Assembly (NCBI RefSeq): GCF_003076755.1
Contig: NZ_QDKM01000006.1
Location: forward strand, 1 to 64,000
Direction of reading: 5' to 3'
DNA length: 64,000 bases
Source of the DNA: Pararhodobacter oceanensis
GTDB lineage: Bacteria > Pseudomonadota > Alphaproteobacteria > Rhodobacterales > Rhodobacteraceae
In this document: positions 35,086 to 62,409 of the stretch, in pieces
How the letters are laid out: every line of letters begins with the position of its first letter
How positions within the stretch are numbered: position 1 is the stretch's first letter
The notes under the pieces: generated by a model
Seen by the model: the letters and a program-made list of their open reading frames with translations, nothing else
The model's database searches: none
Told to the model about the DNA's origin: nothing
Position numbers and translations under genes: made by a program

Positions 35086-35375
35086 GCGCCCCGCGTCCGG
35101 TTCCGGCCCGCACCGAAGTGCGCCGTCGCTGGCAGGACGCCGGATTTGTCATCCCCGCCTTTGCCGCGCTACTGCTGACGCCGCCATTTCTCAACCTGTT
35201 TGCGGTGCGCCGCCTTCTGTTCGGCATCCCTCTGGAAGTCGCCTATCTGTTCACCATCTGGACGGCGCTGGTGCTCTGCGCGGTGGTCCTTTCGCGCCGT
35301 CTACCACGCCAGATCGACCCCGAGCCGGTGGACAGCCCCCCGATCGACAAAAGCGCGGAGCCCGATAAATCCTGA
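35082..35375 (+). CDS. Small membrane protein coupled to the SSF-type kinase
   Basis: 97 residues with two predicted transmembrane helices (about 20-40 and 48-70) and an acidic/Pro tail. It resembles the short accessory membrane proteins often encoded next to sodium:solute symporters (DUF3311/DUF4212-like size), but I cannot assign a family with certainty. It overlaps both neighbours by 1-4 bases. It probably associates with the symporter-like part of the kinase. Confidence 0.7.
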   Translation: MSAPRPVPARTEVRRRWQDAGFVIPAFAALLLTPPFLNLFAVRRLLFGIPLEVAYLFTIWTALVLCAVVLSRRLPRQIDPEPVDSPPIDKSAEPDKS

Positions 35376-38098
35376 TGCTGTCACCGGATTTCGTCATTCT
35401 GACGGCGGTGGCCTATGTCGGTTTGCTGTTCGTCATCGCCTATTTCTCCGACGCCCAAACGCGCCGTGGCAAGGCCGGATTCCTGCGCTCGCCCTTGGTC
35501 TACACGCTGTCGATCTCGGTCTATTGCACCAGTTGGACATTCTACGGCGCGGTCGGCACGGCGGCCCGCGACGGGCTCGAGTTCATGGCCGTCTATATGG
35601 GGCCGACGCTGGTGTTTGTCGGCTGGTGGTTCCTGTTGCGCAAACTGGTCTGGGTCTGCCATTCGCAGGGCATCACCTCGATTGCCGACCTTCTGTCCTC
35701 GCGGTTCGGCAAATCCAGCAGCCTCGCGGTTCTGGTGACGCTGATCGCCATGGTCACGATCACCCCCTATATCGCGCTGCAACTCAAGGCGATTGCCACC
35801 TCGATCCAGACCGTATCCAGCGCCCGCGGCCATGGCGACCGGCTGGCGGGGCTCGATGATGTCAGCCTTGCGCTGGGCGCGGCGGTGGGCATGGCGCTGT
35901 TCTCGATCTTTTTCGGCACTCGCAACGTCGATGTGCGCGAGCAACATCTCGGCGTTGTCGCCGCCATCGCCTTTGAAGCCGCCGTCAAACTGCTGGCGCT
36001 GATCGCGGTCGGGTTGTTTGTGGTCTTCGGGATGAGCGGCGGCTTTGGCGATGTCTACGCCCGCGCCGTTGAGGCGGGGTTTGATATCCATGAGCGCGAG
36101 CCCTTCGGCAGCCGCTGGATCGCGATTCTGATCCTCTCGTCCAGCGCCATCCTCTGCCTGCCGCGCCAGTTCCATATCACCGTGATCGAGAACTCCAACG
36201 AGGAACATCTGCGCACCGCCGGCTGGGCCTTTCCCGCCTATCTGCTGTTGATGAGCACCTTCACCCTACCGATCGCCTATTACGGGCTGGCGACGATGCC
36301 CGCAGGATCGAACCCCGATATGTTCGTCCTCACCCTGCCGATGGCGGCGGGGCAGGACGGGCTGGCGCTGTTTGCCTTTATTGGCGGGTTTTCCTCGGCC
36401 ACCTCGATGATCATCATCGCCTCGATTGCGCTGTCGATCATGGTCTCCAACCATATCGTGCTGCCCCTCGCGCTCAGCCGTGGCGACAAGCTGGTCGAGA
36501 CCGGCGAAAAGGGCATCGCGCGGTTGCTACTGCGCTCGCGCCGGATCTCGATTGCGGTGATCCTGCTGATGGGCTTCCTCTATTTCTGGTTGACCGGTGA
36601 AAGCGACGCGCTGGCGCCCATCGGGCTGATTTCCTTCGCCGGTGTCGCGCAATTCCTGCCCGCGCTTCTGGCCGCGCTTTATTGGCGGCAGGCGCATGTC
36701 TACGGCGCGCTGTCGGGCATTCTGATCGGCACCGCGACGTGGGCATGGACGCTGTTTCTGCCCAGTTTCACCAGTTCTTCGCTGACCATCGCCAGCCTTG
36801 TGGCCCATGGCCCATGGGGGCTGACCGCCCTGCGCCCCGAGGCCCTCTTTGGCATGGAGGGGCTCGATCCCTTGGTGCATTCGGTGTTCTGGAGCCTGTT
36901 TTTCAACGTCACCGCGCTGATTTTCGTCTCGCTTCTGGCCAAGCAGAACATCATGGAGCGGGTGCAATCCGGCGTTTTCGTCGATATCTTCCGCGCCGAT
37001 CAGGGCGCACAAACCCGCGTCATTCGCGGCTCGGCCACCACCGATGAGATATTTTTCGTCGCCGAGCGCGTGCTTGGCTGGCACCGCGCACAAACCCTCT
37101 TTGAGGCCGCCAATATCCCGCGCGGCGATCACGCGCTCGATGTTGCGGTCTCCTCGGAATTCATCGCCCGATTGGAACGCGAGCTCGCCAGTTCCATCGG
37201 TGCCGCCTCGGCGCATGTGCTGCTGACCAAGGTCGGCGCCGATGACCGGATTTCATTAGAGGAGGTGATGCAGATCGCCGGTGAAACCCAGCAGGCGATT
37301 GAATATTCGCATGAGCTAGAGGAAAAATCCCACAAGCTGCGCCTCACCGCCCAACAGTTGCAAGAGGCCAACGCACGGCTGCATGAACTCCACCGGCAAA
37401 AGGATGATTTCCTCAGTCAGGTCAGCCATGAGGTGCGCACGCCGATGACCTCGATCCGCTCGATCTCGCAGATCCTCTTGCGCGAGCGGGATCTCGACCC
37501 CGACCGCCGCAGCCGGTTCATCCAGACCATCCACCAAGAAAGCGCCCGTCTGACGCGGCTTCTCGACGGTATCCTCGACATGAGCGCTTTGGAGCACGGC
37601 GAGGGCACATGGGACATCCGCCCCATCGACGGCGAAACCGTGCTCGCCCGCGCCTTTATCGTCTGCGAGGCGCTCGCCCGCCAGCACGCCATCGCTGTCG
37701 AGCATCACCCGCAGGTGCCAGACGCGCAGATCCTCGGCGATCCCGACCGGCTCTGTCAGGTGTTCATCAATATCATCGCCAACGCCATCGCCCATAACGA
37801 CGCCAAAGCGCCGGTGGTGCAGGTGCTGTCACGGGTCGAGGGCGGGAAATATGTGGTCGATATCGCCGATAATGGCAAAGGCATCTCGGCGGAATACCAC
37901 AGCAATATCTTCGATAAATTCATGCGCGTGCAGCCCTCGGATGCGGGCGCGGCGGTGCCCTCGGGCCTCGGGCTGGGGCTGAACATCAGCTATACGATCA
38001 TCCAGAAGATGAACGGCAGGCTGGAACTTGTCGATGGCCCGCTCGAGGGGGCGTGTTTCCGTATCACCCTGCCGCTGAGCGAGGACGAACCCGCCTAA
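35375..38098 (+). CDS. Sodium:solute symporter-histidine kinase fusion (CbrA/CrbS type)
   Basis: 907 residues. Residues 1 to about 490 are a 12-13-helix sodium:solute symporter domain (SWTFYGAVGTAARDG, QGITSIADLLSSRFGKS, GFSSATSMIIIASIALSIMVSNHI). A linker of about 500-670 follows, ending in a coiled coil (EYSHELEEKSHKLRLTAQQLQEANARLHELHRQ). The HisKA phospho-acceptor is H685 in SQVSHEVRTPMTSIRSIS, followed by the ATPase domain with N box NIIANAIAHND, DNGKGIS and GLGLGLNISYTIIQ. Such kinases sense or depend on an organic solute and control acetate, amino-acid or carbon-source use (CbrA, CrbS). It is encoded with a receiver protein and converges with the XRE regulator. Confidence 0.92.
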   Translation: MLSPDFVILTAVAYVGLLFVIAYFSDAQTRRGKAGFLRSPLVYTLSISVYCTSWTFYGAVGTAARDGLEFMAVYMGPTLVFVGWWFLLRKLVWVCHSQGITSIADLLSSRFGKSSSLAVLVTLIAMVTITPYIALQLKAIATSIQTVSSARGHGDRLAGLDDVSLALGAAVGMALFSIFFGTRNVDVREQHLGVVAAIAFEAAVKLLALIAVGLFVVFGMSGGFGDVYARAVEAGFDIHEREPFGSRWIAILILSSSAILCLPRQFHITVIENSNEEHLRTAGWAFPAYLLLMSTFTLPIAYYGLATMPAGSNPDMFVLTLPMAAGQDGLALFAFIGGFSSATSMIIIASIALSIMVSNHIVLPLALSRGDKLVETGEKGIARLLLRSRRISIAVILLMGFLYFWLTGESDALAPIGLISFAGVAQFLPALLAALYWRQAHVYGALSGILIGTATWAWTLFLPSFTSSSLTIASLVAHGPWGLTALRPEALFGMEGLDPLVHSVFWSLFFNVTALIFVSLLAKQNIMERVQSGVFVDIFRADQGAQTRVIRGSATTDEIFFVAERVLGWHRAQTLFEAANIPRGDHALDVAVSSEFIARLERELASSIGAASAHVLLTKVGADDRISLEEVMQIAGETQQAIEYSHELEEKSHKLRLTAQQLQEANARLHELHRQKDDFLSQVSHEVRTPMTSIRSISQILLRERDLDPDRRSRFIQTIHQESARLTRLLDGILDMSALEHGEGTWDIRPIDGETVLARAFIVCEALARQHAIAVEHHPQVPDAQILGDPDRLCQVFINIIANAIAHNDAKAPVVQVLSRVEGGKYVVDIADNGKGISAEYHSNIFDKFMRVQPSDAGAAVPSGLGLGLNISYTIIQKMNGRLELVDGPLEGACFRITLPLSEDEPA

Positions 38099-39693
38099 CC
38101 CGTCGGGGATTGCATCATTGTCGCCGCCTCTTCCTGCCGGTGACTGCACCCCTCGCGCACACACAAAAGGCAACTCGGCCCCACCGGCACCCGCGCCTGC
38201 GGATCGTCCAGATCCAGCCCCTGCCCATACACCGTGCGCCCCGCATGCAAGAGATCGCAGGCCAGCATCACCGAGAACACCAAGGGTTGTTCCTGCCACG
38301 CCTGCACGCGTTTCTTCACCGTCTTGGCGATCAGTAAAAACCGCGCGCCATTGGGAAACTCGGAAATCTGCCGCTGGATGCCCGAGGTGCCAAACACCGA
38401 ATAAATCGGCCAGAGCGAACAGCCGAACCCCGAACTCGGCAGCGACAATCCGGGCAGCGGAAAGCGTTTGGTCAACCGCCCCGAGATATCCGAGCGCAGA
38501 AAGCCAAAGGGCACCCCCTCCGCCCCCTCGCGCCGCAATGTCACCAGCCGATGCGCGACCTGTTCGAAACTGGCGGTGTAGCTGTGGCTCAACAGGTCGA
38601 TATCATAACGCTGCGCCTCGGCATCGGTCCAAAACTGTGCATAGGGCATCACCATCGCCCCCGCCACATAGGACGACAGCGCCCCCTGCGCCAGCGCACG
38701 CGCCTCGGGCGATGACAGGTCCAGCCGGTCGCAGGTCGCGTCAATCTGCGCCGCACCGGCCTGTTGCGCATAGAGCCGGCACATCTGGAATTGCCGCGTC
38801 GCCGCCGTCGCCGAGCCGCGCAGCCACAGGGTCTTGGCGTCACCATCATAGCGCGCCGGACGCGGCCCGCCCGAGGCTATCACCTGTGCCGGCATCTGCG
38901 CCCGAACCGCGCCGGTCCAGCGCCGACAGGTGACGCCGAACTGCGCCTCCAAAGCCGCCGCCATGGCTGATTCGCCAAACGCCCCCTGCGCCTCGATCTC
39001 GGCGCGCAGCGCCTCGGCCAGCAGTTCCAACTCGGGGAAATGGTTGTTGCTGTTGATCAGCGCATCCTCGACCTCGCGCAGCGGCGACAGGGTGCGGCGC
39101 TCGCGCGATTCCATATCGAAATACGACGCCAGCCCGCGCACCGTCTCCGACATGCTGCTCGCCTCGCTCGAGATCAGCCCGCTGAACCGCTGCCGGTCCT
39201 TGGGCGCCAGATCCTCCATCTTACTCAGGATTTCCGCGCTCGAGCGCATCGCGGTGATCCGGCTGAGCACCTCATGCAGCATCTGCGACAGCATCGGGTC
39301 CGACGACAGCCGGTTGGCATAGGCGTCAAGCTCGGAATTGGCGTCGGTATAGGCGGCGTGCAGCTTGGTCAGCGCCCGCGCCACCTCGGGAAATCTGGCA
39401 ACCAAATCATGCAGATCGGCCTGTTCCAGCGCCAGCCGCTGCAACAAGGGATCGTTCAGAACCTCTTGCAGCGCATTCAGCGTGCGCTGCTCGGGATCGC
39501 CGGACAGATCCTCAACCCCCAGCCCCAGATGCTGGGCAATCGCTTGCAGCAGACTGCCGCCGATCTCGCGCTTGTTGTTCTCGATCAGGTTCAGATAGCT
39601 CGGCGAAATCCCCACCGCCCGCGCCAGCCCCGCCTGCGTCAGCTTCAGCGCCATCCGGTGCCGCCGCACCCTGATCCCGATCGGTGCCCGCAT
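38095..39693 (-). CDS. ScfR/RamB-like XRE regulator with DUF2083 and a HisKA-like segment
   Basis: 532 residues. The start at 39693 is preferred (GGGGAGG 6 bases upstream) over 39699. Residues 5-60 are an XRE helix-turn-helix (TQAGLARAVGISPSYLNLIENNKR). Residues 133-195 form a predicted helical hairpin with SQMLHEVLSRITAMRSSAEIL (H140), strikingly like the HisKA helix of the adjacent kinase. The C-terminal third is DUF2083 as in short-chain-fatty-acid regulators (PYAQFWTDAEAQRYDIDLLS, SFEQVAHRLVTLRR, FGCSLWPIYSVFG, PVGPSCLLCVREGCSHR). The usual HExxH of the DUF955 part was not found. It probably controls acetate/propionate-type metabolism; targets are unknown. Its stop overlaps the end of the kinase gene by 4 bases, tail to tail. 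Confidence 0.82.
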   Translation of the reverse strand: MRAPIGIRVRRHRMALKLTQAGLARAVGISPSYLNLIENNKREIGGSLLQAIAQHLGLGVEDLSGDPEQRTLNALQEVLNDPLLQRLALEQADLHDLVARFPEVARALTKLHAAYTDANSELDAYANRLSSDPMLSQMLHEVLSRITAMRSSAEILSKMEDLAPKDRQRFSGLISSEASSMSETVRGLASYFDMESRERRTLSPLREVEDALINSNNHFPELELLAEALRAEIEAQGAFGESAMAAALEAQFGVTCRRWTGAVRAQMPAQVIASGGPRPARYDGDAKTLWLRGSATAATRQFQMCRLYAQQAGAAQIDATCDRLDLSSPEARALAQGALSSYVAGAMVMPYAQFWTDAEAQRYDIDLLSHSYTASFEQVAHRLVTLRREGAEGVPFGFLRSDISGRLTKRFPLPGLSLPSSGFGCSLWPIYSVFGTSGIQRQISEFPNGARFLLIAKTVKKRVQAWQEQPLVFSVMLACDLLHAGRTVYGQGLDLDDPQARVPVGPSCLLCVREGCSHRQEEAATMMQSPTG

Positions 39694-39716
39694 CGCCATC
39701 CTCCCCGCTGCAATCT

Positions 39717-39796: not shown

Positions 39797-39864
39797 AGAT
39801 TTTCAATGTGTCCCTAGTCTTTCGGCGGGAGAAACTGGTGTTTACACCGCAAGGGAGGACAGTG

Positions 39865-41211
39865 ATGACAAAGTTCACAATGAACAGGCGTGGCTTGCTC
39901 AAGACCGTGGGGGCAGGGCTGACAACAGCGGTGGCCTCGCCTCTGGTGCTGACCAACCGCGCCTATGCGCAGCAGTTTTGCAACAATCCTGGCGACAATG
40001 ATCCGATCATCGGTTTCAACGTGCCGCAGACCGGCACCTATGCCGAAGAGGGGCTCGAGCAACTCAAGGGTTACGAGCTGGCCGTTAAGCATATCAACGG
40101 CGAGGGTGACGGCGGCATGATCAACACCATGCAGCCGACTGCGCTCAAGGGCAACGGCATCCTCGGCAAGCGGCTGCGCTATGTCACCGGCGACACCCAG
40201 ACCAACACCGACGCCGCCCGCGACGGCGCCCGCCGGATGATCGAACGTGACGGCGCGGTGATGGTCACCGGCTGCGTCACCACCGGCGAGGCTGTGGCGC
40301 AACAGGCGCTCTGCCACGAGTTGGGCGTGATCTATATGTCCGGCCTGACCCACGGCAATGACACCACCGGCAAGGACAAGCGCCGCTACGGGTTTAGGCA
40401 TTTCTTCCAAGGCTATATGTCCGGCGTCGCGATCGCGCCGCTGCTGGCCGAGGAATATGGCCGCGACCGCCGCGCCTATCATTTGACCGCCGATTACAAC
40501 TGGGGCTGGACCCAGGAAGAATCGATCATGGCGGCGACCGAAGCATTGGGTTGGGAAACCGTGCGTGCCGTTCGCACACCGCTCGGGATCGGGGATTATT
40601 CGCAGTATCTGACGCCGGTGCTGAACTCGGGCGCGGATGTGCTGATCCTCAACCACTATGGCCACGACATGGTGAATTCGCTGCCGCAGGCGGTGCAATT
40701 CGGCATGCGCGACCGGATGGCGAACGGCAAGCAGTTCGAAATCATCGTGCCGATGTTCTCGGAACTGATGGCGGTGGGCGCGGGCGATGCGGTGAAGGGC
40801 ATCATCGGCACCCAGAACTGGAACTGGCAGCTTGACGACGCGGGCTCGCGCGCCTTCACCCAGTCCTACGGCGCCGAATACGGCGAGCCGCCCTCGCAGT
40901 CGGCGCACACCGGCTATGTGCAGACGCTGCTCTACGCCGATGCGGTCGAGCGGGCCGGCACTTTCTACCCGCCCGAGGTGATCCGCGCGCTCGAGGACTT
41001 CGAGTTCGACGGTCTCGGCAACGGCCCGACGCTCTATCGCGGCTCGGACCACCAGTGCTTCAAAGAGGTGCTTGTGGTGCGCGGCAACGAGGCGCCGACC
41101 AGCCGCTTTGACGTGCTCGACGTGGTCGGCAAGACGCCGCGCGAGGATGTCATGTATGACCCCGCGATCTTTGGCGGCGAGCTGGGCCCCTACGAGCCGA
41201 ATATGTGCTGA
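39865..41211 (+). CDS. Branched-chain/amide-type ABC transporter substrate-binding protein
   Basis: 448 residues from the ATG at 39865 (GGGAGG upstream). The N-terminus MTKFTMNRRGLLKTVGAGLTTAVASPLVL is a twin-arginine-like signal ending near AYAQ, so export may be through Tat. The mature protein is a type I periplasmic-binding fold of the Liv/urea/amide group (IIGFNVPQTGTYAEEGLEQLKGYELAVKHIN, GDTQTNTDAARDGARRMI, GLTHGNDTTG, GIIGTQNWNWQLDD). It is longer than typical LivJ (about 370). The last residue is Cys. It is followed by livH, livM, livG and livF-type genes and then the ATP-sulfurylase homologue. The ligand is not branched-chain amino acids with any certainty. Confidence 0.87.
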   Translation: MTKFTMNRRGLLKTVGAGLTTAVASPLVLTNRAYAQQFCNNPGDNDPIIGFNVPQTGTYAEEGLEQLKGYELAVKHINGEGDGGMINTMQPTALKGNGILGKRLRYVTGDTQTNTDAARDGARRMIERDGAVMVTGCVTTGEAVAQQALCHELGVIYMSGLTHGNDTTGKDKRRYGFRHFFQGYMSGVAIAPLLAEEYGRDRRAYHLTADYNWGWTQEESIMAATEALGWETVRAVRTPLGIGDYSQYLTPVLNSGADVLILNHYGHDMVNSLPQAVQFGMRDRMANGKQFEIIVPMFSELMAVGAGDAVKGIIGTQNWNWQLDDAGSRAFTQSYGAEYGEPPSQSAHTGYVQTLLYADAVERAGTFYPPEVIRALEDFEFDGLGNGPTLYRGSDHQCFKEVLVVRGNEAPTSRFDVLDVVGKTPREDVMYDPAIFGGELGPYEPNMC

Positions 41212-41360: not shown

Positions 41361-42389
41361 ATGGACGCGATACTTGCTCAATTGCTCAACGGTCTGGACA
41401 AGGGCGGCGCCTATGCGCTGATCGCCCTCGGCCTGACCTTGGTTTTCGGAACGCTGGGCGTGGTCAATTTTGCCCATGGCGCCCTGTTCATGCTGGGATG
41501 TTTCTGCGCGGTGGTCTTCCGCTATCTCTTGACCATCGAGACGGTGACCGTCGATCCCACGCAGCTGTCGCCTTGGGGCGCGCCGGTCGAGGTGCGCACG
41601 CCCTTGGTGCAAAGCTGGCTTGGCGATTGGGGCGCGTTTCTGGTCGATTACTCGGTGCCCCTCTCGGTGATCTTTGCCGTGCCGGTGATGCTGGTGATCG
41701 GCATCGTCATGGAGCGCGGGCTGATCAAGCATTTCTACAAACGCAGCCACGCCGAGCAGATCCTTGTCACCTTCGGCCTTGCCATCGTGCTGCAGGAAAT
41801 CGTGCGCAGCTTCTTTGGCGCCAATCCGGTGCCGCAGCCGATCCCCGCCGATCTGCGCGTTGCTGCCGATGTCGGCGTCTGGTTCGGGATGGAGGCCTAT
41901 AGCGTCACCTATCCGACATGGCGGCTGGTCTATCTGCTGTTCTCGGCCGGTGTGATCGGCGCGGTCTTTGCCTTCATGCGGTTCACCACCTTCGGGATGG
42001 TGGTGCGCGCCGGTATGGCCGACCGCGAGACGGTGGGCATTCTGGGCATCGACATCGACCGCAAATTCACCATCGTCTTCGGCCTTGCCGCGGTCGTCGC
42101 CGGTGTCGCGGGGGCGATGTATACCCCGCTTCTGGCGCCCAACTATCACATCGGGATGGATTTTCTGGTGCTGAGCTTCGTCGTCGTGGTGGTCGGCGGC
42201 ATGGGGTCACTGCCCGGAGCGGTGGTGGCAGGCTTCCTTCTGGGCGTCCTGCAGAGCTTTGCCTCGATGAATGAGGTCACCTCGATTTTTCCGGGGATCG
42301 ACCAGATCATCATCTACCTCGTCGCAATCATCATTTTGCTGGTGCGCCCGCGCGGCCTGATGGGTCGTTCCGGCGTCATGGAGAGCTGA
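41361..42389 (+). CDS. Liv-type ABC transporter permease (LivH family)
   Basis: 342 residues, about 8 transmembrane helices. Typical blocks are LNGLDKGGAYALIALGLTLVFGTLGVVNFAHGALFMLG at the N-terminus, ILVTFGLAIVLQEIVRSFFGANP, RAGMADRETVGILGIDIDRKFTIVFGLAAVVAGVAGAMYTPL and VVVVGGMGSLPGAVVAGFLLG, which includes the EAA-like loop. It is longer than classical LivH (about 300) because of an insert around residues 55-100. GAGGG precedes the ATG. It forms the channel with LivM. Confidence 0.9.
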   Translation: MDAILAQLLNGLDKGGAYALIALGLTLVFGTLGVVNFAHGALFMLGCFCAVVFRYLLTIETVTVDPTQLSPWGAPVEVRTPLVQSWLGDWGAFLVDYSVPLSVIFAVPVMLVIGIVMERGLIKHFYKRSHAEQILVTFGLAIVLQEIVRSFFGANPVPQPIPADLRVAADVGVWFGMEAYSVTYPTWRLVYLLFSAGVIGAVFAFMRFTTFGMVVRAGMADRETVGILGIDIDRKFTIVFGLAAVVAGVAGAMYTPLLAPNYHIGMDFLVLSFVVVVVGGMGSLPGAVVAGFLLGVLQSFASMNEVTSIFPGIDQIIIYLVAIIILLVRPRGLMGRSGVMES

Positions 42390-42395
42390 TCCGCC

Positions 42396-43541
42396 ATGTT
42401 TTCACTATCTCGCAAAGACTTCACCTTGCTGGCGGTGTTTTCCGTCATCGTCATGACCATGCCGATCTGGCTGCAGCCCTTGGGCGCGGCCTACCCGGGG
42501 CTGATGCAGAAATTCGTCATCTATGCGATTTTCGCCATTGGGTTTAACATCCTCTTCGGCCTCACCGGCTATCTCAGCTTTGGCCATGCGGCGTTTCTCG
42601 GCGTCGGCTCTTATACCGCGGTCTGGTCGTTCAAACTCCTGTCGATGGATATGATCCCGGCGCTGTTCTTCGCCGTGGTCTTCGCCGGTATCTTCGCGCT
42701 GTTCATCGGGTTTTTCAGCCTGCGGCGCTCGGGTATCTATTTCTCGATCCTGACGCTGGCCTTCGCGCAGATGAGCTATAGCCTCGCCTATTCCGTGCTC
42801 ACCCCGATCACCAATGGCGAGACCGGCCTACTGATCGCCCGCGATGATCCGCGCGCGATTGATACGATGCTTGGCGTCGGGCAATCCGCCTCTGGCATGC
42901 CGATGCCCTCGCTGATCGGCATTGAGCTGGGCGGCTACGGCGGGTTTTATATCTGCGCGCTGGTGCTGATCGCCTGTTTCTTTCTGTCGCAGAAAATCTT
43001 TGCCTCGCCCTTTGGCATGGCCCTGCGCGGGATCAAATCGAACCCGACGCGGATGATCTACACCGGCTTTAACACCAAGCCCTATATGCTGACCGCCTTT
43101 GTGATCTCGGGCATGTTCGCCGGTCTGGCCGGTGGCCTTCTGGCGGTGACCGATCCGATTGCCGGTGCCGAGCGCATGCAATGGACGGAATCGGGCAACC
43201 TTGTGTTGATGACCATTCTCGGCGGCGTCGGCACGCTGCTTGGGCCGGTGATCGGTGCTTGGGTGATCAAATATTGCGAGAATATCTTCTCGGCGATCAA
43301 CACCCAGATGCTCAACGGGTTTTTCGAGTTCCTCCCCGACGGGGTGCAAAGCGTCGCCGTCACGGTGATGTCGAAATTTGTCGGCGAAGGCTGGCATCTG
43401 ACGCTGGGTCTGGTGTTCGTGCTGATCGTGGTGTTCCTGCCCGGCGGTCTGGTCGAGGGCGCCGAAAAGCTCCGCCACCGCTTTAGACGCCGCTCCGACA
43501 CCTATGACCTTGCCGCCGACGCACAGGAGAAACGCACATGA
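42396..43541 (+). CDS. Liv-type ABC transporter permease (LivM family)
   Basis: 381 residues with about 10 transmembrane helices. The LivM signatures are [54 protein letters not shown], the conserved [44 protein letters not shown] and [17 protein letters not shown]. It starts 6 bases after livH and its stop overlaps the livG start (ATGA). Confidence 0.9.
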
Positions 43542-44338
43542 CCGCGCAAGCCAAAGCCGTCGCCCCTGACGCCGTTCCGGGCAATATCGTCCTGCATGTC
43601 GCGGATGTGTTCAAGAATTTCGGTGGGCTCAAGGCGCTGTCCGATATCGACCTTCAGGTCGAAGAGGGCACCACCCATGCGATCATCGGGCCCAATGGTG
43701 CGGGGAAATCCACGCTGTTGAATGTGATCATCGGCCGCCTGCCGCCGACCAGCGGCGCGGTGGTCTTTGATGGCAATGTGCTGACCGGCATGGCCCCGCA
43801 TGAGATCAACCAGCTCGGTATATCTAGGGTGTTCCAGACCCCCGAGATCTTCGCCGATCTCTCGGTCCTGAACAACGTCATGGCGCCCGCTTTCGCCCGC
43901 CGCGACGGGGCGTTTCGGGTCAATATGTTCCGCGCGGTGATGGATGAGGCCGAGATCCGCGCCGAGGCCGAGGGGCTGCTGCGCGAATTCGGCCTTTATG
44001 CGCGGCGCGAGGATCACGCCGGTGCCCTCTCGCGCGGCGACAAACGGCGGCTGGAACTGGCGATGTGCCTGATCCAGCGCCCGCGTCTGCTGCTTTTGGA
44101 CGAGCCCACCGCCGGCATGTCGCGCCATGACACCAACACCACCATCGAGCTGCTGAAATCGATCAAAAGCCGCGGCATGACCATCGTGATTATCGAGCAC
44201 GATATGCATGTGGTGTTTTCACTCGCCGACCGGATCTCGGTGCTGGCGCAGGGCCGGTTGATCGCCTCGGGCCCGCCGCAACAGGTCAAGGATGACCCGC
44301 GCGTCAAAGAGGCTTATTTGGGAGTGCCTGCAGAATGA
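43538..44338 (+). CDS. Liv-type ABC transporter ATP-binding protein (LivG family)
   Basis: 266 residues. Walker A is [11 protein letters not shown], the Q-loop region is [18 protein letters not shown], the signature is [15 protein letters not shown] (S-R-G-D in place of the usual SGGQ-type, a variant seen in LivG-like proteins), Walker B is [11 protein letters not shown], and the H-loop is [10 protein letters not shown]. It forms a heterodimer with the LivF-type protein. Overlaps of 4 bases with both neighbours show translational coupling. Confidence 0.9.
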
Positions 44339-45208: not shown

Positions 45209-46912
45209 ATGCCTAAAGATATGAACTTCGACACCTACCCGCAAAAACCCCACGGCGGGGTGCTGGTGGATCAGGTTGTGCCCGCGGGGCAGCGCGACGC
45301 CGAAATCGCGCGCGCCCGCAATCTGCCCTCGATCCGCGTTGATCTAGAGGCTGTCATCACCATCGAAATGATCGCCACCGGCGTCCTTTCGCCCAACACC
45401 GGCTTTATGAATGAGGCGGATTATAACTCGGTGCTCTCCGAAGGCCGTCTTGCCAATGGCACGATCTGGCCGGTGCCGCTCAGCTTCGCGCCGGTGGGCA
45501 GCAAGAACGCCGAGATCATCAAGACCCTGAGCGTCGGCGATGAGGTGGCGCTGACCGATAGCAACAATGATCCGGTCGCGATCCTGACCCTCAGCGATAT
45601 TTTCGACTATGACAAGGACGGGCGCGCGCAGAAACTCTTCGGCACCAGCGACCGCAGTCATCCCGGTGTGGACTCGATCTATCGGCGCATGGGCGACACC
45701 TCGCTGGCCGGTCCCGTCACGCTGCTCAAGCGCGCCGACTGGGGGCCGTTCGAGAAAATCCGACAAGAGCCCAAAGACACTTGGCGGATGTTCTACGACG
45801 AGCGCAAGTTCTCCTCGGTCGCGGGGTTCATCACCGGCGCCAACCCGCTGCACCGCGGCCATGAATACATCCACAAAAACGCGCTCGAAGAGGTCGACGG
45901 GCTGTTTGTCCAGCCCCTCGTCGAGATGGCGAAACGCGAATATGTGCGCCATGAATTTCGCATGCTCGCCTATCGCTCGGTGCTCGATACCTATTACCCC
46001 GACACCCGCGCGATGATGGCGCCCCTGCGCGTGACCTATATTTTCGCCGGTCCGCGCGAGGCAATCCTGCATGCGCTGATCATGAAAAACTACGGCTGCA
46101 CCCATGCGCTGATCGGGCGTGACCACGCCGGTGTCGGCAGTTTTTATGACAAATACGCCGGTCACTCGATCTTTGACAATTACAGCGCCGAAGAACTGGG
46201 CATCGACATCCGCCTGTTCCATGAGGTGTTCTACTGCGCCCGCTGTTCCTCCCATGCGACCGAGAAAACCTGTTCGCATGACGCGCAATACCGGCTGGGC
46301 ATCTCGGGCACCGGCATCCGCGAGATGCTGCGCCACGGCATCCTGCCCCCGAAAGAGGTGGTCCGCCCCGAGGCCGCGCGGATCGCCATTCAGGGCGTCC
46401 AGCCCAAGGGCGTTGACGAGGCGGGCGAGGGCACGCTGCCGGTCGCCAAAGTCGTCCAGAGCATGTATCCCTTCTACCGTGAGCATACCCGTTTCGGCGG
46501 CCCCAAACGCGCCACGCCACTCGCCGCCGAGGACCTCACTGTGCGCGATCTCGAGGCCGCCAGTCTCGATGTGCGCAGCAACGCGCATATGGTCTACAGC
46601 GATGTTTATAATGAATATAGCAGCCTCGCCGACCACAATCTGAGCCTGCAGCGCACATGGATCACCGAGGCCCGCGCGACGATCAAGGCGCATCAGGAAA
46701 TGGTGCTCTCGGACCTTGAGGAAAAACTCGCCATGGCGCCTGCCGAGGCTTCGGATGAGTTCATGTATCAAGACAAGTCCGAGACCGAGCGCGAGGTGGT
46801 GGCCGCCAAGCTGCATCTCGACGCGGCGCCGCCGGTCACCGCCGAGGACACGCTATCGGCCAAGGTCTGGAACCCGCTGCCCTACCACCGCTACCGCGGC
46901 ATCGACGACTAA
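45209..46912 (+). CDS. ATP sulfurylase (sulfate adenylyltransferase) homologue with altered sulfate site and C-terminal extension
   Basis: 567 residues. Residues 1 to about 420 follow dissimilatory-type Sat: an N-terminal PUA-like domain, then the catalytic domain with NPLHRGHEYI (H215, H218), FAGPREAILHALIMKNYGCTHALIGRDHAGVG, a zinc-type site FYCARCSSHATEKTCSHD and ISGTGIREMLRHG. The QxRN motif that holds sulfate reads T209-G-A-N212, so both Gln and Arg are replaced. Residues 420-567 are an extension I cannot assign (charged, helical, ending YHRYRGIDD). The gene follows a Liv-type ABC operon by 64 bases with the same strand and ends at a strong terminator. It may act on another anion, run in reverse, or be non-catalytic. 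The name Sat should be used with caution. Confidence 0.8.
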   Translation: MPKDMNFDTYPQKPHGGVLVDQVVPAGQRDAEIARARNLPSIRVDLEAVITIEMIATGVLSPNTGFMNEADYNSVLSEGRLANGTIWPVPLSFAPVGSKNAEIIKTLSVGDEVALTDSNNDPVAILTLSDIFDYDKDGRAQKLFGTSDRSHPGVDSIYRRMGDTSLAGPVTLLKRADWGPFEKIRQEPKDTWRMFYDERKFSSVAGFITGANPLHRGHEYIHKNALEEVDGLFVQPLVEMAKREYVRHEFRMLAYRSVLDTYYPDTRAMMAPLRVTYIFAGPREAILHALIMKNYGCTHALIGRDHAGVGSFYDKYAGHSIFDNYSAEELGIDIRLFHEVFYCARCSSHATEKTCSHDAQYRLGISGTGIREMLRHGILPPKEVVRPEAARIAIQGVQPKGVDEAGEGTLPVAKVVQSMYPFYREHTRFGGPKRATPLAAEDLTVRDLEAASLDVRSNAHMVYSDVYNEYSSLADHNLSLQRTWITEARATIKAHQEMVLSDLEEKLAMAPAEASDEFMYQDKSETEREVVAAKLHLDAAPPVTAEDTLSAKVWNPLPYHRYRGIDD

Positions 46913-57223: not shown

Positions 57224-58199
57224 GGGGGCTTCCCCATCGCCACGACCGGCTCCCACCACATCGTCCACCCCTTTGGCCCGTGTGGAACACGGGCCGCGCC
57301 CGATCCTTCGAGAGTAAGCACCACCATCCCGTAGCGCACCGCATCGCCCCACCCCTTGGCCCGGGGGCACCCCGGGCCGCGCCCGACCCTCCCCCCGGGA
57401 GGGCGCCTTGGCGATGCCCGTCACCGCCCAACCGACATCCGTGCTTCCAATCGCCCCGCGTCGTTCCAAGCACACCTGCGCCCACCCAGTGTCGGGCGCG
57501 TCCCTTTGCGCTTGGTTCGGATCTGCCAATAACGCGCCCAAGCGAGAGCCATCGATAGTAAACACCTCCGTCCCGTAGCGCACCTCATCGCCCCACCCCT
57601 TTGTCCCGGCGGCACCGCCGGGCCGCGCCCGACCCTCCCCATGGGAGGGCGCTTTGGCAATGTCCTTCACCGTCCAACCGACATCCATGCTTTCAAGCAC
57701 ACCGCCTTGTGGCAAAGCCAGAGCGCCCTCCCAGGGTCAGGCGCGACCCTCCACGCTTGGCTCCGAGCGGGGGCTGTTAGGGAAATCACCCTGAGTCGTT
57801 CCCGAGCAACACCACCCCCCGTCACGCCCGGCGGCACCGCCGGGCCGCGCCCGACCCTCCCCATGGGAGGGCGCCTTGGCGATGGCCGTCACTGTTTAAC
57901 CGACATCCATGCTTGCAAGCCACCGCGTCGTTCCACGGGCACCTGCGCCCACCCAGGGTCAGGCGCGGCCCTCCACGCTTGGCTCCAACCCTGCGCCACA
58001 CCGCCCCGTCCCCCTGCAACCAGCTTCGGAAATACCCGCATCCCGCCGCCGCAAAGTGCGTCTTTTTTCGAAATTCTGTCATACGGGCTTCACAAACGTG
58101 GTTTATCGCATCAGAGTGCAGATATTCGCGCTTCGGGTCACCGATGTGCGGGCGTTTGTCAGGTGCAGAAGAAACCTACATTACCATGGGGATCAGATT
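57224..58199. repeat. Degenerate tandem repeat array with conserved hairpins
   Basis: About 980 bases with no credible gene. A core of about 73 bases occurs at 57374-57446, 57620-57692 and 57842-57914 (periods 246 and 222), with a partial fourth copy near 57275-57361. Each copy is preceded by a hairpin: GGCCCGTGT/ACACGGGCC (57275-57295), GGCCCGGGG/CCCCGGGCC (57358-57378), CCCGGCGG/CCGCCGGG (57605-57622 and 57827-57844). Stems differ in sequence but stay paired. Each full core also carries CCCTCCC-N3-GGGAGGG (57387-57403, 57633-57649, 57855-57871). A trailing element ending ...CGCTTGG recurs at 57459-57515, 57710-57766 and 57926-57985. Long open frames through it are repeat artefacts. The ugpB promoter should lie near 58050-58190. 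Confidence 0.8.
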
Positions 58200-59525
58200 A
58201 TGATGAAACACAGTCTAATGGCAGCCACCGCGCTGGGCATGACCCTGTCGGCTCAGGCCGCACAGGCGCAGGTGGAACTGCAGTGGTGGCACGCAATGGG
58301 CGGCCGCTTGGGTGAATTGGTCGAGGAAATCGCGACCAACTTCAACGAGAGCCAGTCCGACTATGTCGTGCGGCCTTCGTATCGCGGCAACTACACCGAA
58401 ACGATGACCGGCGCGATCGCCGCGTTCCGGGCCGGTGAGCAGCCGCATATCGTGCAGGTGTTCGAGGTTGGCACCGGCACGATGATGTCGGCCGAGGGCG
58501 CGATTGTGCCGATCTACCAGCTGATGGCCGACAATAATGTCGAGTTCGACCCCGAGGCCTATCTGCCCGCGGTCGTCGGCTATTACACCGACCCGAACGG
58601 CAATATGCTGTCGTTCCCGTTCAACTCCTCGACGCCGATCCTCTATTACAACCGCGACGTCTTCGAGGCCGCCGGTCTCGACCCGGATCAGGCACCGACC
58701 ACTTGGGCCGAGATGGAATCCGCCTCGCAGCAGATCGTGTCCTCGGGCGCGGCGACCTGTGGCTTTACCACCCGCTGGCCCAGCTGGGTGCAGATGGAGA
58801 ACTTCCTCGCCTATCACAACCTGCCGCTCGGCACGCAGCAAAACGGTTTCGCCGGATTTGACTCGGAACTGGTGCTCAACCAGCACGAGCCCTTGGTGCG
58901 GCACTGGGAGAATCTGGCGCGCTGGCAGTCCGAAGGCCTGTTTAGCTGGGCCGGTGGTGGCGCTGGCCCCGATGCCGGACCCAAGTTCTACTCGGGTGAA
59001 TGCGCGATGATGATGGAAAGCTCGGCCGGTCGTGCGGGCGTCATGGCAAATGCCGACTTTAGCGTTGGCTACGGCATGCAGCCCTATTACGCCGATGTCG
59101 AAGGCGCACCGCAGAACTCGATCATCGGTGGCGCCACGCTGTGGACCCTCTCGGGTCATGACGCAGGCGATTACGCCGGTGTCGCACAGTTCTTCGCCTT
59201 CCTGTCGCTGCCGGAAAATCAGGCCTGGTGGCACCAGAACACCGGTTACCTGCCGATCACCCATGCCGCCGCGGAGCTGACCCGCGAGCAGGGGTATTAC
59301 GACGAGAACCCGGGCGCCGACACCTCGATCCTGCAGATGAACCTGAACCCGCCGACCGAAAACTCGCGCGGCCTGCGGTTCGGCAACTACGTGCAGATCC
59401 GCGACATCGTCTCCGAGGAAATGGAATCGATGATCACCGGGTCGAAAACCGCACAGGAAGCCGCCGATGCGGTGGTCGAGCGTGGCAATCGCCTGCTGCG
59501 CGACTTCGAAGCCGCGATGCAGTGA
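58200..59525 (+). CDS. ugpB: sn-Glycerol-3-phosphate ABC transporter binding protein (UgpB)
   Basis: 441 residues from the ATG at 58200 (a second ATG follows directly). The signal peptide is about 1-24 (ending AQAAQA). The mature protein has UgpB features: VELQWWHAMGGRLGELVEEIATNFNESQSDYVVRPSYRGNYTETMTGAIAAFRAGEQPHIVQVFEVGTGTMMSA, including the Y-x-G-N-Y and E/S residues that contact the phosphate, and FTTRWPSWVQMENFLAYHNLP and GGATLWTLSG. It binds glycerol-3-phosphate or glycerophosphodiesters. A strong hairpin-T terminator follows, so it should be made in excess of the membrane subunits. Confidence 0.92.
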   Translation: MMKHSLMAATALGMTLSAQAAQAQVELQWWHAMGGRLGELVEEIATNFNESQSDYVVRPSYRGNYTETMTGAIAAFRAGEQPHIVQVFEVGTGTMMSAEGAIVPIYQLMADNNVEFDPEAYLPAVVGYYTDPNGNMLSFPFNSSTPILYYNRDVFEAAGLDPDQAPTTWAEMESASQQIVSSGAATCGFTTRWPSWVQMENFLAYHNLPLGTQQNGFAGFDSELVLNQHEPLVRHWENLARWQSEGLFSWAGGGAGPDAGPKFYSGECAMMMESSAGRAGVMANADFSVGYGMQPYYADVEGAPQNSIIGGATLWTLSGHDAGDYAGVAQFFAFLSLPENQAWWHQNTGYLPITHAAAELTREQGYYDENPGADTSILQMNLNPPTENSRGLRFGNYVQIRDIVSEEMESMITGSKTAQEAADAVVERGNRLLRDFEAAMQ

Positions 59526-59544
59526 TCTGACGACTTGACCTCTC

Positions 59545-59579
59545 CTCCCGCCCGGCGACATGCTCGGGCGGGAGTTTTT
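59545..59579 (+). terminator. Rho-independent (attenuating) terminator between ugpB and ugpA
   Basis: CTCCCGCCCG (59545-59554), loop of 10, CGGGCGGGAG (59565-59574), then TTTTT. This is a textbook terminator, 20 bases after the ugpB stop and 17 before the ugpA start. Because ugpAEC have no other obvious promoter, partial read-through is expected. Confidence 0.88.
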
Positions 59580-59595
59580 GACTGACAGGCCCGAA

Positions 59596-60480
59596 ATGCA
59601 AACCAAACGCATGACCTTTAACAGCCGTTGGTTGCCCTATGCGCTGCTCGCACCGCAGGTGATCATCACGCTGGTTTTCTTTGTCTGGCCCGCCAGTCAG
59701 GCATTATGGCAATCGATGCTGCGCCAAGACCCCTTCGGGCTGCGCACCACCTTTGTCTGGTTCCAGAACTTTGAACGTTTGTTCGAGGATTCGCATTACC
59801 TCGCGTCGATGAAAACGACGCTGATCTTCTCGGTCTCGACCACCCTTCTGTCGATGTCCGTGGCGCTGTTGTTCGCGGTGATGGTCAACCGGATGATCCG
59901 CTCGCAGAACGCTTATTCGACATTCCTCGTCTGGCCCTATGCCGTGGCCCCCGCGATTGCCGGTGTGCTCTGGTGGTTCATCTTTAACCCCTCGGTCGGC
60001 ATCCTGCCCTATATTCTGGAAGGCTTCGGCTATGACTGGAACCACCGGCTGGATGCGGGCGATGCGATGATCCTTGTGGTCGTTGCCGCCGCATGGAAGC
60101 AGATCAGCTATAACTTCCTGTTCTTCCTTGCCGGTCTGCATTCGATCCCGCAGTCCTTGGTCGAGGCCGCCGCGATTGACGGCGCCAGCCGCACCAAGCG
60201 GTTCTGGACAATCATCTTCCCGCTGCTCTCGCCGACGACCTTCTTTCTGATGGTGGTCAATGTGGTCTACGCGATGTTCGACACATTCGGCGTGATCCAT
60301 GCCACCACCGAGGGCGGACCGGCGCAGGCGACCAATATCTTGGTCTATAAAGTCTATCGCGACGGGTTTGTCGGCAACAATCTGGGCTCCTCGGCGGCGC
60401 AATCGGTGATCCTGATGGTGATCGTGATCGCCCTTACCGTGGTGCAATTCCGCTGGATCGAGCGGCGGGTGAACTACTGA
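59596..60480 (+). CDS. ugpA: sn-Glycerol-3-phosphate ABC transporter permease UgpA
   Basis: 294 residues with six transmembrane helices. The N-terminal cytoplasmic start is short. The EAA loop is [31 protein letters not shown]. The start at 59596 is the first ATG after the terminator; the open frame begins upstream inside the hairpin. It forms a heterodimer with UgpE. The gene lies 30 bases before ugpE. Confidence 0.9.
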
Positions 60481-60510
60481 TGCATACGGCACAATTGAAA
60501 GGCGCGGATC

Positions 60511-61359
60511 ATGGTTGAGAATGACCGCTGGGGCACGCTGTTTGCCCATATCATCCTGATCCTCGGCGTTGCCGTGGTGGTGTTTCCGGTCTATGTGGCG
60601 CTGGTTGCCTCTACGCATGAGGGCGGCACCTTCCTGCGCGGGGTGATGCCACTGCTACCGGGCTCGCACGGCTGGGAGAATTACTCGACGGTGATCATCG
60701 AGGGCCGCTCGAACGCCGGTGCGCCGCCAATCGGGGGCATGCTGTGGAACTCCTTCGTCATGGCGATGGCCATCGCCATTGGCAAAATCGCCATCTCGCT
60801 GCTCTCCGCCTTCGCCATCGTCTACTTCCGCTTTCCGTTCCGCATCTTTTTCTTCTGGGTGATCTTTGTCACCCTGATGCTGCCGGTCGAGGTGCGGATT
60901 GTGCCGACCTTCGAGGTGGTCGCGCAGCTTAATATGCTCAACACCTATGCGGGGCTTTCGATCCCCTTGATCGCCAGCGCCACCGCGACCTTCCTGTTCC
61001 GGCAGTTCTTTATGACCGTCCCCGAAGAAATGCTCGAGGCCGCCCGTGTTGACGGCGCCGGTCCGATGAAATTCTTCAAGGATATCCTGATGCCATTGAG
61101 CATCACCAATATCGCGGCGATGTTTGTGATCATGTTTATCTACGGCTGGAACCAGTATCTCTGGCCGCTTTTGATCACCACCGACGACAGCTATTACACC
61201 ATTGTGATGGGCATCCAGCGCATGGTCACCGGCGGCGATAGCGAACCCCTGTGGCATCTGGTGATGGCCACGGTGGTGCTTGCCGCCCTCCCACCGATCC
61301 TTGTGATCCTGTTTATGCAGCGGCTCTTTGTGAAGGGCCTGACCGAGACGGAGAAATAA
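60511..61359 (+). CDS. ugpE: sn-Glycerol-3-phosphate ABC transporter permease UgpE
   Basis: 282 residues, six transmembrane helices. The EAA loop is EEMLEAARVDGAGPMKFFKDILMPLSITNIAAM. The N-terminal VENDRWGTLFAHIILILGVAVVVFPVYVALVASTHEG and the HGWENYSTV region are typical of UgpE. The gene ends 3 bases before ugpC. Confidence 0.9.
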   Translation: MVENDRWGTLFAHIILILGVAVVVFPVYVALVASTHEGGTFLRGVMPLLPGSHGWENYSTVIIEGRSNAGAPPIGGMLWNSFVMAMAIAIGKIAISLLSAFAIVYFRFPFRIFFFWVIFVTLMLPVEVRIVPTFEVVAQLNMLNTYAGLSIPLIASATATFLFRQFFMTVPEEMLEAARVDGAGPMKFFKDILMPLSITNIAAMFVIMFIYGWNQYLWPLLITTDDSYYTIVMGIQRMVTGGDSEPLWHLVMATVVLAALPPILVILFMQRLFVKGLTETEK

Positions 61360-61362
61360 CCC

Positions 61363-62409
61363 ATGGCGCGCATCGTGATCGACGATCTGCACAAGGTCTA
61401 TGCCGGGGGCGTAAAGGCGGTAACGGGCGTCAGCCTCGATATCGCCGACGGCGAAATGATCGTGCTGGTCGGCCCCTCGGGCTGTGGCAAATCCACCCTG
61501 CTGCGGATGGTGGCGGGGTTGGAAACCATCACCAACGGCACGCTGACCATCGGCGACCGTGTGGTCAATGATCTGGAACCCGCCGACCGCGATATCGCGA
61601 TGGTGTTCCAGAACTACGCGCTCTATCCGCATATGACGGTGCGCGGCAATCTCGCCTACGGGCTGAAAAACCGCGGTGTCTCGAAACCGGATATTGAGCG
61701 GCGGGTGAATGAGGCGGCGGCGATGCTGGAGATTGCCGATTTCCTCGACCGCAAGCCCCGCGCCCTGTCGGGTGGCCAGCGCCAGCGCGTCGCCATGGGT
61801 CGCGCTTTGGTGCGCGAACCCGCGGCGTTTCTGTTCGATGAACCGCTGTCGAACCTTGACGCCAAACTGCGGGTGCAGATGCGCGTCGAGATCCGCCAGC
61901 TTCAGCGCCGGTTGCGCACCACCTCGCTCTATGTGACCCATGACCAGCTTGAGGCGTTAACCATGGCCGACCGGCTGGTGGTGCTCAACGGCGGGGTGAT
62001 CGAACAGGTCGGCACGCCGATGGATGTCTACGCCAAACCCGCCTCGGTGTTTGTCGCCGGTTTCATCGGCTCACCGGCGATGAATATGATCGACGCCGGA
62101 TATCTGCGCGATCACGGCAGCATGCCCGCCGAGATGCCCTCGGGCACCGATATTGTCGGCGTGCGCCCCGATGATCTGCTGCTGGCCAAACCCGAAGGCC
62201 CGCATCTGGCGCTGCAAGGCACCGTCGCGCTGTTGGAACCGGCCGGCGCCGAGAGCCATATCTACGTCACGCTCGACGGCAATAGCGCGCCGTTGACCGT
62301 GCGCGTGCAGGGTCTGCCCTCGGTGCTCGAAGGGCAGGGGGTGCCGCTTTACGCGCCGCTCTCGGCGCTGCACCCGTTCAACAAAGCCAGTGGCAAACGC
62401 ACGGATTGA
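61363..62409 (+). CDS. ugpC: sn-Glycerol-3-phosphate ABC transporter ATPase UgpC
   Basis: 348 residues. Walker A is [12 protein letters not shown]-loop [11 protein letters not shown], signature [15 protein letters not shown], Walker [17 protein letters not shown]-loop [11 protein letters not shown]. The C-terminal TOBE/regulatory domain (about 235-348) starts [15 protein letters not shown] and includes [12 protein letters not shown]. It powers the UgpABE system. This is the last gene of the operon. Confidence 0.92.

Follow-up and report, generated by a model that had tools for sequence, protein, structure and literature searches.

The known routes by which acetate, a central carbon source, is activated are AckA-Pta, ADP-forming ligases, CoA-transferases, and acetyl-CoA synthetase (Acs), a member of the AMP-binding (ANL) superfamily. 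Carboxylates are also adenylylated by PanC and by class I aminoacyl-tRNA synthetases, relatives with the HIGH/HxGH nucleotidyltransferase fold that belong to families other than PF01747, the family of the ATP sulfurylases (Sat). In the Sat of A. vinosum, the sulfate of APS is reported to be held by the side chains of Gln199 and Arg201 and by the amide of Ala299, and Arg201 to be hydrogen-bonded by Asp237 of the GxxKxxD motif (PMC3779200).

Here we describe a gene for a sulfurylase-like protein in a window of 64,000 nucleotides, the whole stretch of DNA analyzed, from Pararhodobacter oceanensis (contig NZ_QDKM01000006.1). The encoded protein is probably an enzyme derived from ATP sulfurylase that has exchanged sulfate as its substrate for acetate or a similar small monocarboxylate, acting in place of or beside Acs. 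Among the papers listed by a literature search, with bioRxiv and most subscription journals outside its reach, none linked a sulfurylase homologue to acetate activation.

The sulfurylase-like protein and its substrate site

An intact open reading frame on the forward strand (45209-46912) encodes the ATP-sulfurylase homologue, a protein of 567 amino acids with a PUA_2 domain (PF14306, residues 13-175, E = 4.8e-44) and an ATP-sulfurylase domain (PF01747, residues 183-393, E = 2.2e-70). The protein passes the cut-off of the NCBIfam model NF003166 (396 vs 387 bits) and misses that of TIGR00339 (sopT), the sulfate adenylyltransferase model (308.7 vs 322.95 bits). The first of two structure models was weak over residues 273-319, and adding canonical Sats to the input raised the mean pLDDT from 74.0 to 85.6 in a second AlphaFold model (pTM 0.79). 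Foldseek matched this model to ATP sulfurylases over about 390 residues, with 8a8d from M. thermolithotrophicus at an E-value of 2.6e-41. Residues 1-400 have the same fold as this Sat and those of T. thermophilus (1v47) and A. vinosum (4dnx), with TM scores by target of 0.93, 0.94, and 0.85, respectively. The NMNAT and PPAT nucleotidyltransferases were weaker structural matches, and neither PanC nor class I aminoacyl-tRNA synthetases were among the Foldseek matches listed for the model.

The HxxH, GRDH, SGTxxR, and zinc-type motifs are common to the window protein and Sat. In contrast, the window protein has an I-T-G-A-N sequence with an insertion and an ExxKxxY motif, has lost two further arginines, and carries an additional C-terminal domain of no known family. 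The altered QxRN loop, F207-I-T-G-A-N-P-L-H-R-G-H218 (45827-45862), contains one inserted residue and runs into an intact HxxH. Both phmmer comparisons with solved sulfurylases and a MAFFT alignment with 36 canonical Sats pair F207-I208-T209-G210-A211-N212 with F-Q-T-(gap)-R-N, so that the Gln position of QxRN is taken by I208 and the Arg position by A211, G210 being the insertion (or vice versa). The original prediction had read T209-G-A-N212 as the replacement of QxRN. The bases 45833-45844 do encode these four residues, as it had proposed, and its register was off by one, with the Gln position at I208 and not at T209, because the loop exceeds the canonical one by one residue.

Conservation across the family sets the retained motifs apart from the substrate site. 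Among 51 aligned members, H215 and H218 of HxxH, the GRDHAG motif (residues 303-308; 46115-46132), the zinc-type site C343-x-x-C346 ... C355-x-H357 (46235-46279), and S366-G-T, I370, and R371 of SGTGIR (residues 366-371; 46304-46321) are invariant, and G369 is nearly so. The motif E239-x-x-K242-x-x-Y245 (45923-45943) is present in all 51 and lies where canonical Sats have their GxxKxxD mobile loop (36 of 36 rows). Two more arginines, found in all 36 canonical rows, are replaced by I278 and M292 in 50-51 of the 51. The claim that the nucleotide and pyrophosphate motifs are kept while the Gln and Arg for sulfate binding are missing thus holds throughout the aligned sequences (51 family vs 36 canonical rows). 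The joint loss of the sulfate-contacting residues and of the Asp of GxxKxxD argues that the sulfate-specific network is, as judged from these alignments, rebuilt as one unit in this family.

The loop is equally constant in the wider sample. The motif GFITGANP[LM]HRGHE was read in 80 of 80 loci (the best 80 of 130 relatives) and in all 20 loci of a second set, the genomes of which partly overlap with the first, and FQTRNP was read in 28 of 28 loci with canonical Sats. Since every locus carries it, the altered loop is neither chance nor a base-calling error, and the sequencing error that had been allowed for as an escape is ruled out.

The family-specific C-terminal domain spans about residues 403-567 (46415-46909), as delimited by sequence searches and the model. 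In the window sequence, these approximately 165 residues gave no Pfam match at E <= 10 and no PDB sequence match at E <= 5, and the corresponding domain of two relatives gave Pfam matches below cut-off only. The model, at lower confidence in this part, shows mainly three long helices.

Phylogeny and spread of the family

A scan with one genome per species produced 137 pattern matches, 130 of which encode a relative of the window protein. The best 80 of these 130 were kept and are 64-82% identical to it. Their hosts include Roseovarius and relatives, Alcaligenaceae, Pseudomonas, Aliidiomarina, Sporosarcina and other Bacillota, and the actinobacterium Homoserinimonas. In a tree built on residues 1-402, a branch with support 100/100 separated 37 family rows from 17 canonical rows. 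The place of the family among the canonical Sats was weakly defined, and its long stem depended on the model. Short tree distances between members from different phyla suggest that the gene may have spread horizontally. Some match at E <= 0.001 was present in 162 of 198 genomes of the family to which the window belongs. Close relatives were present only in two (G000 and G152), the next match being of 234 bits and 34% identity.

Among the canonical Sats compared, those most similar to the window protein (39-43%) are from Bacillota genomes that also carry a family member (L180, L181, L158, and L159). All four read FQTRNPVHRAHE and lie outside the family branch (support 100/100). One Bacillales metagenome-assembled genome (L061, 2744-7837) has two sulfurylase-like copies flanking an L-lactate-type MFS transporter, one of which (61% to the window protein) diverges more than any other of the 51 aligned sequences. 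A further locus (L194, NZ_CP081281.1, 1-8200) arranges ActP, CrbR, CrbS, and the sulfurylase-like gene as in Alcaligenaceae loci. It lies on an unannotated record of 16.7 kb that is labeled a Phaeobacter inhibens plasmid, in which CrbS and the sulfurylase-like gene are split over several frames. This carrier was set aside as evidence, as its sequence may be of low quality and misassigned, being of Alcaligenaceae type.

Sulfate metabolism in carrier genomes

The original prediction had suggested looking for a canonical Sat elsewhere in the genome. The sulfurylase-like gene is the only PF01747 gene that a profile search found there. A sulfate-activating system is present nonetheless, in the form of CysD (515 vs a cut-off of 413 bits) and a CysN/CysC fusion (1061 vs 715 bits), together with a second PF01507 match. 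The genome is therefore predicted to activate sulfate by CysDN/C, and the sulfurylase-like gene should not be needed for that purpose. Over a broader set, 6 of 23 carriers had no PF01507 (PAPS/APS-reductase) match over cut-off, with no match at all in G206, G216, G224, and G225 and a match below cut-off in G207 and G217. The sulfurylase-like protein is the sole PF01747 protein of these six. Additional PF01747 genes accompany it in G152, G198, G199, G201, G211, and G227. We also considered a dissimilatory or sulfur-oxidation context and rejected it, as no conserved sulfur gene was found near the family in the mapped loci, for which open reading frame calls were crude where G+C-rich.

The window operon and the acs slot

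The gene is the last of an operon that begins with a HAAT (branched-chain/urea type) ABC transporter on the forward strand, composed of a substrate-binding protein (39808-41211; PF13458), two permeases (41361-42389 and 42396-43541; PF02653 in both), and two ATPases (43538-44338, PF00005 and PF12399; 44335-45144, PF00005). It follows the second ATPase on the same strand after 64 bp. Upstream of the transporter lies a divergent regulator on the reverse strand (38095-39699) with a short-chain fatty acyl-CoA regulator domain of the RamB/ScfR type (PF09856, ScfRs), which scores below the cut-off of the NCBIfam RamB model NF038139 (291 vs 700 bits). Beyond it, on the forward strand, is a CrbS-like fusion of an SSS symporter and a histidine kinase (35375-38098; PF00474, PF00512, and PF02518), a homologue of which adjoins the same transporter in most relatives fetched. 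CrbS and CrbR are reported to control acs and actP in Pseudomonas and Vibrio (PMC5715377). Elsewhere in the window (57909-62409) there is an ordinary glycerol-3-phosphate ABC transporter, with ugpB, ugpA, and ugpC over their NCBIfam cut-offs.

The same transporter in related genomes indicates what usually occupies the end of this operon. A homologue of the substrate-binding protein at E <= 1e-100 was present in 84 of 120 family genomes, including the window's own, and the transporter locus was fetched from 40 of the other 83 in two sets of 20. In 27 of these 40 loci (13 of 20 and 14 of 20) the gene directly after the second ATPase was acs, at a distance of 95-314 bp and with 73-82% identity to the Acs of the window's genome. 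Two of these acs genes were run against NCBIfam, and both pass TIGR02188 and NF001208. The remaining 13 loci had no acs after the second ATPase, three of them (L135, L224, and L226) ending at the end of a contig. Consequently, the sulfurylase-like gene of the window occupies the position that holds acs in most relatives checked. The Acs of the window's own genome is encoded elsewhere (L152), beside ActP-like and DUF294 genes. In two Alcaligenaceae (L239 and L253), an acs of a second class follows a distantly related HAAT ABC transporter, the parts of which are 31-45% identical to those in the window, so the pairing of ABC transporter and acs is wider than Rhodobacteraceae.

Although it shares this position with Acs (TIGR02188), the window protein matches only sulfurylase models, and Acs is an unrelated protein family. 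The window protein falls outside the Acs family, and within PF01747 it fails defining residues of ATP sulfurylase. The original prediction did not mention the acetate-type operon, the C-terminal domain, or the wider family.

Neighborhoods in other hosts

Neighbors were assigned by tblastn, and weak matches of ABC ATPases (24-45%) were left out as generic. Acetate-type neighbors, as opposed to sulfur genes, accompany the family in 28 of 80 loci (best 80 of 130): the HAAT operon in 3, CrbS in 16, and a Bacillota-type ActP in 9. In 50 of the 80, some of them short, none of the acetate or lactate neighbors sought was detected by tblastn, and the same holds for one of the four Rhodobacteraceae loci (L034).

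Alcaligenaceae carriers have the sulfurylase-like gene beside yjcH-actP-crbR/crbS loci. In all 12 Alcaligenaceae-type loci that show both genes, the gap between actP and crbR is 45-153 bp and contains no acs. Among non-carriers of this group, two loci read yjcH-actP-acs-crbR (L196 and L200) and one reads acs-crbR (L197). These are 3 of 17 fetched non-carrier Acs loci, the rest having mostly the second-class Acs or lacking these neighbors. One carrier (G209) retains a complete yjcH-actP-acs-crbR operon and has the sulfurylase-like gene elsewhere in its genome. The ActP of L036 passes the NCBIfam ActP subfamily model NF006903 (845 vs 750 bits). In Bacillota, the gene directly follows an ActP-type gene in 9 loci (best 80 of 130). 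An L-lactate MFS transporter over cut-off adjoins it in two others (L061 and L096). In both Aliidiomarina carriers (L044 and L046; 7983-9689), it lies between the same two large, unrelated-looking open reading frames of 861-863 and 821-822 amino acids, which do not form an acetate locus.

Co-occurrence with Acs and AckA

The occurrence of the gene is partly complementary to that of Acs. We sampled 151 genomes from the family of Oligella ureolytica, of which 20 are carriers and 129 have Acs at a threshold of E <= 1e-200. Acs was missing from 12 of the 20 carriers vs 10 of the 131 non-carriers (Fisher p = 2.5e-7, a value that ignores relatedness), several of the carrier assemblies without Acs being small and possibly incomplete. 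Among the eight carriers with Acs, seven have only the second Acs class, unlinked to actP/crbR (L214 serving as the reference for G205). A survey across Alteromonadaceae found one carrier in 98 genomes and was uninformative. Narrowed to the genus of Aliidiomarina, it found two carriers in 17, exactly the two without Acs over cut-off (Fisher p = 0.007, again ignoring relatedness), and these two had no AckA match either. Note however that the window's own genome and the Roseovarius-type and Pseudomonas carriers keep Acs (the latter two groups over cut-off) and that Bacillota carriers keep AcsA-like matches; replacement is therefore seen in only part of the hosts. Furthermore, AckA, the one other activation route covered by the search, was present in 16 of 20 carriers, four of them Alcaligenaceae that lack Acs, and could provide another way of activating acetate.

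Proposed function and competing explanations

From the retained catalytic motifs and the genomic context we infer the following chemistry. ATP would be bound as in ATP sulfurylase, through HxxH, GRDH, and SGTxxR, and a carboxylate, replacing sulfate, would attack the alpha-phosphate to yield acetyl-AMP and PPi. The residues I208, G210-A211, and I278 and the E239/Y245 loop may shape a pocket that is less cationic and more hydrophobic and that would accommodate a methyl-bearing monoanion. The acyl group would then pass to CoA, perhaps with the help of the C-terminal domain, so that the enzyme would do the job of Acs. With less assurance, we also lean toward a more specific formulation, in which the protein is an acetyl-adenylate-forming synthetase (with its C-terminal domain, an acetyl-CoA-forming one) of a fold unrelated to Acs that spread horizontally between phyla and displaced acs from acetate operons repeatedly. 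Of the substrates that the original prediction had entertained, another anion or an organic acid, it is the organic acid that gene context favors. If true, activation by a sulfurylase fold would be a new route to the use of acetate, and, were the chemistry confirmed, the family would constitute a new class of acetate-activating enzyme. It would also provide a clear case of a nucleotidyltransferase whose substrate changed from an inorganic to an organic anion. Since the family passes NF003166, carriers can be wrongly credited with sulfate activation, and genome annotation would then have to be corrected.

The identity of the carboxylate is the point at which an alternative comes closest to our proposal. 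By the same adenylylation chemistry, the enzyme might target propionate, lactate, glycolate, or the substrate of the ABC transporter, a reading that would suit the persistence of Acs in the window's genome, the L-lactate-type transporters adjoining the gene in two Bacillota loci, and a transporter whose substrate is unproven. We nevertheless consider it rather unlikely, as three unrelated neighborhoods (ActP, CrbS/CrbR, and the acs slot) point to acetate and as the gene coincides in Aliidiomarina with the loss of Acs itself. It is more doubtful still that the protein belongs to acetate metabolism without being an activating ligase, whether by regulating or using acetyl-AMP or PPi or as a partner of AckA/Pta or of a second Acs. 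The frequency of AckA among carriers, the second Acs in 8 of the 20 Alcaligenaceae carriers, and the Acs kept by Bacillota, Pseudomonas, and Roseovarius-type carriers would all agree with such a role. They are outweighed by the placement of the gene in the acs position itself, by its presence in both Aliidiomarina that have neither Acs nor an AckA match, and by the invariance of the motifs for adenylyl transfer.

Explanations that stay closer to the ancestral function fare worse. The fold, PF01747, the NF003166 score, the zinc-type site, and the status of the gene as the sole PF01747 of its genome could be taken to mean that the protein still adenylylates sulfate, or selenate, molybdate, or another oxyanion, with an unusual binding loop. 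We judge this very improbable, given that all family members seen have other residues in place of the Gln and Arg that contact sulfate, that the score falls under the TIGR00339 cut-off, that CysDN is present in the window's genome, that some carriers are without PF01507 over cut-off, and that no conserved sulfur gene adjoins the gene in mapped loci. Loss of substrate residues can also mean loss of activity, and the protein might be an inactive paralogue retained for structure or regulation. This last idea is scarcely credible, for 51 sequences from three phyla show no variation in HxxH, GRDH, SGTxxR, or the new loop, a constancy that decay would not be expected to leave.

Upstream motifs

The CrbR-linked ACTU motif, searched as a position weight matrix, offered a separate view of regulation. 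Control of the sulfurylase-like gene itself by CrbR through ACTU was considered and set aside as weak, the motif being found upstream of the gene in only 4 of 26 proteobacterial loci at p <= 0.05 (combined p = 0.012) and in 1 of 24 Bacillota loci (combined p = 0.82). Upstream of yjcH-actP it was present in 9 of 9 loci, with p <= 0.015 in each. These nine loci are of betaproteobacterial type (L036, L039, L043, L045, L055, L057, L066, L072, and L073), and the ACTU motif, described in Gammaproteobacteria, is thus recognizable upstream of yjcH in this group as well.
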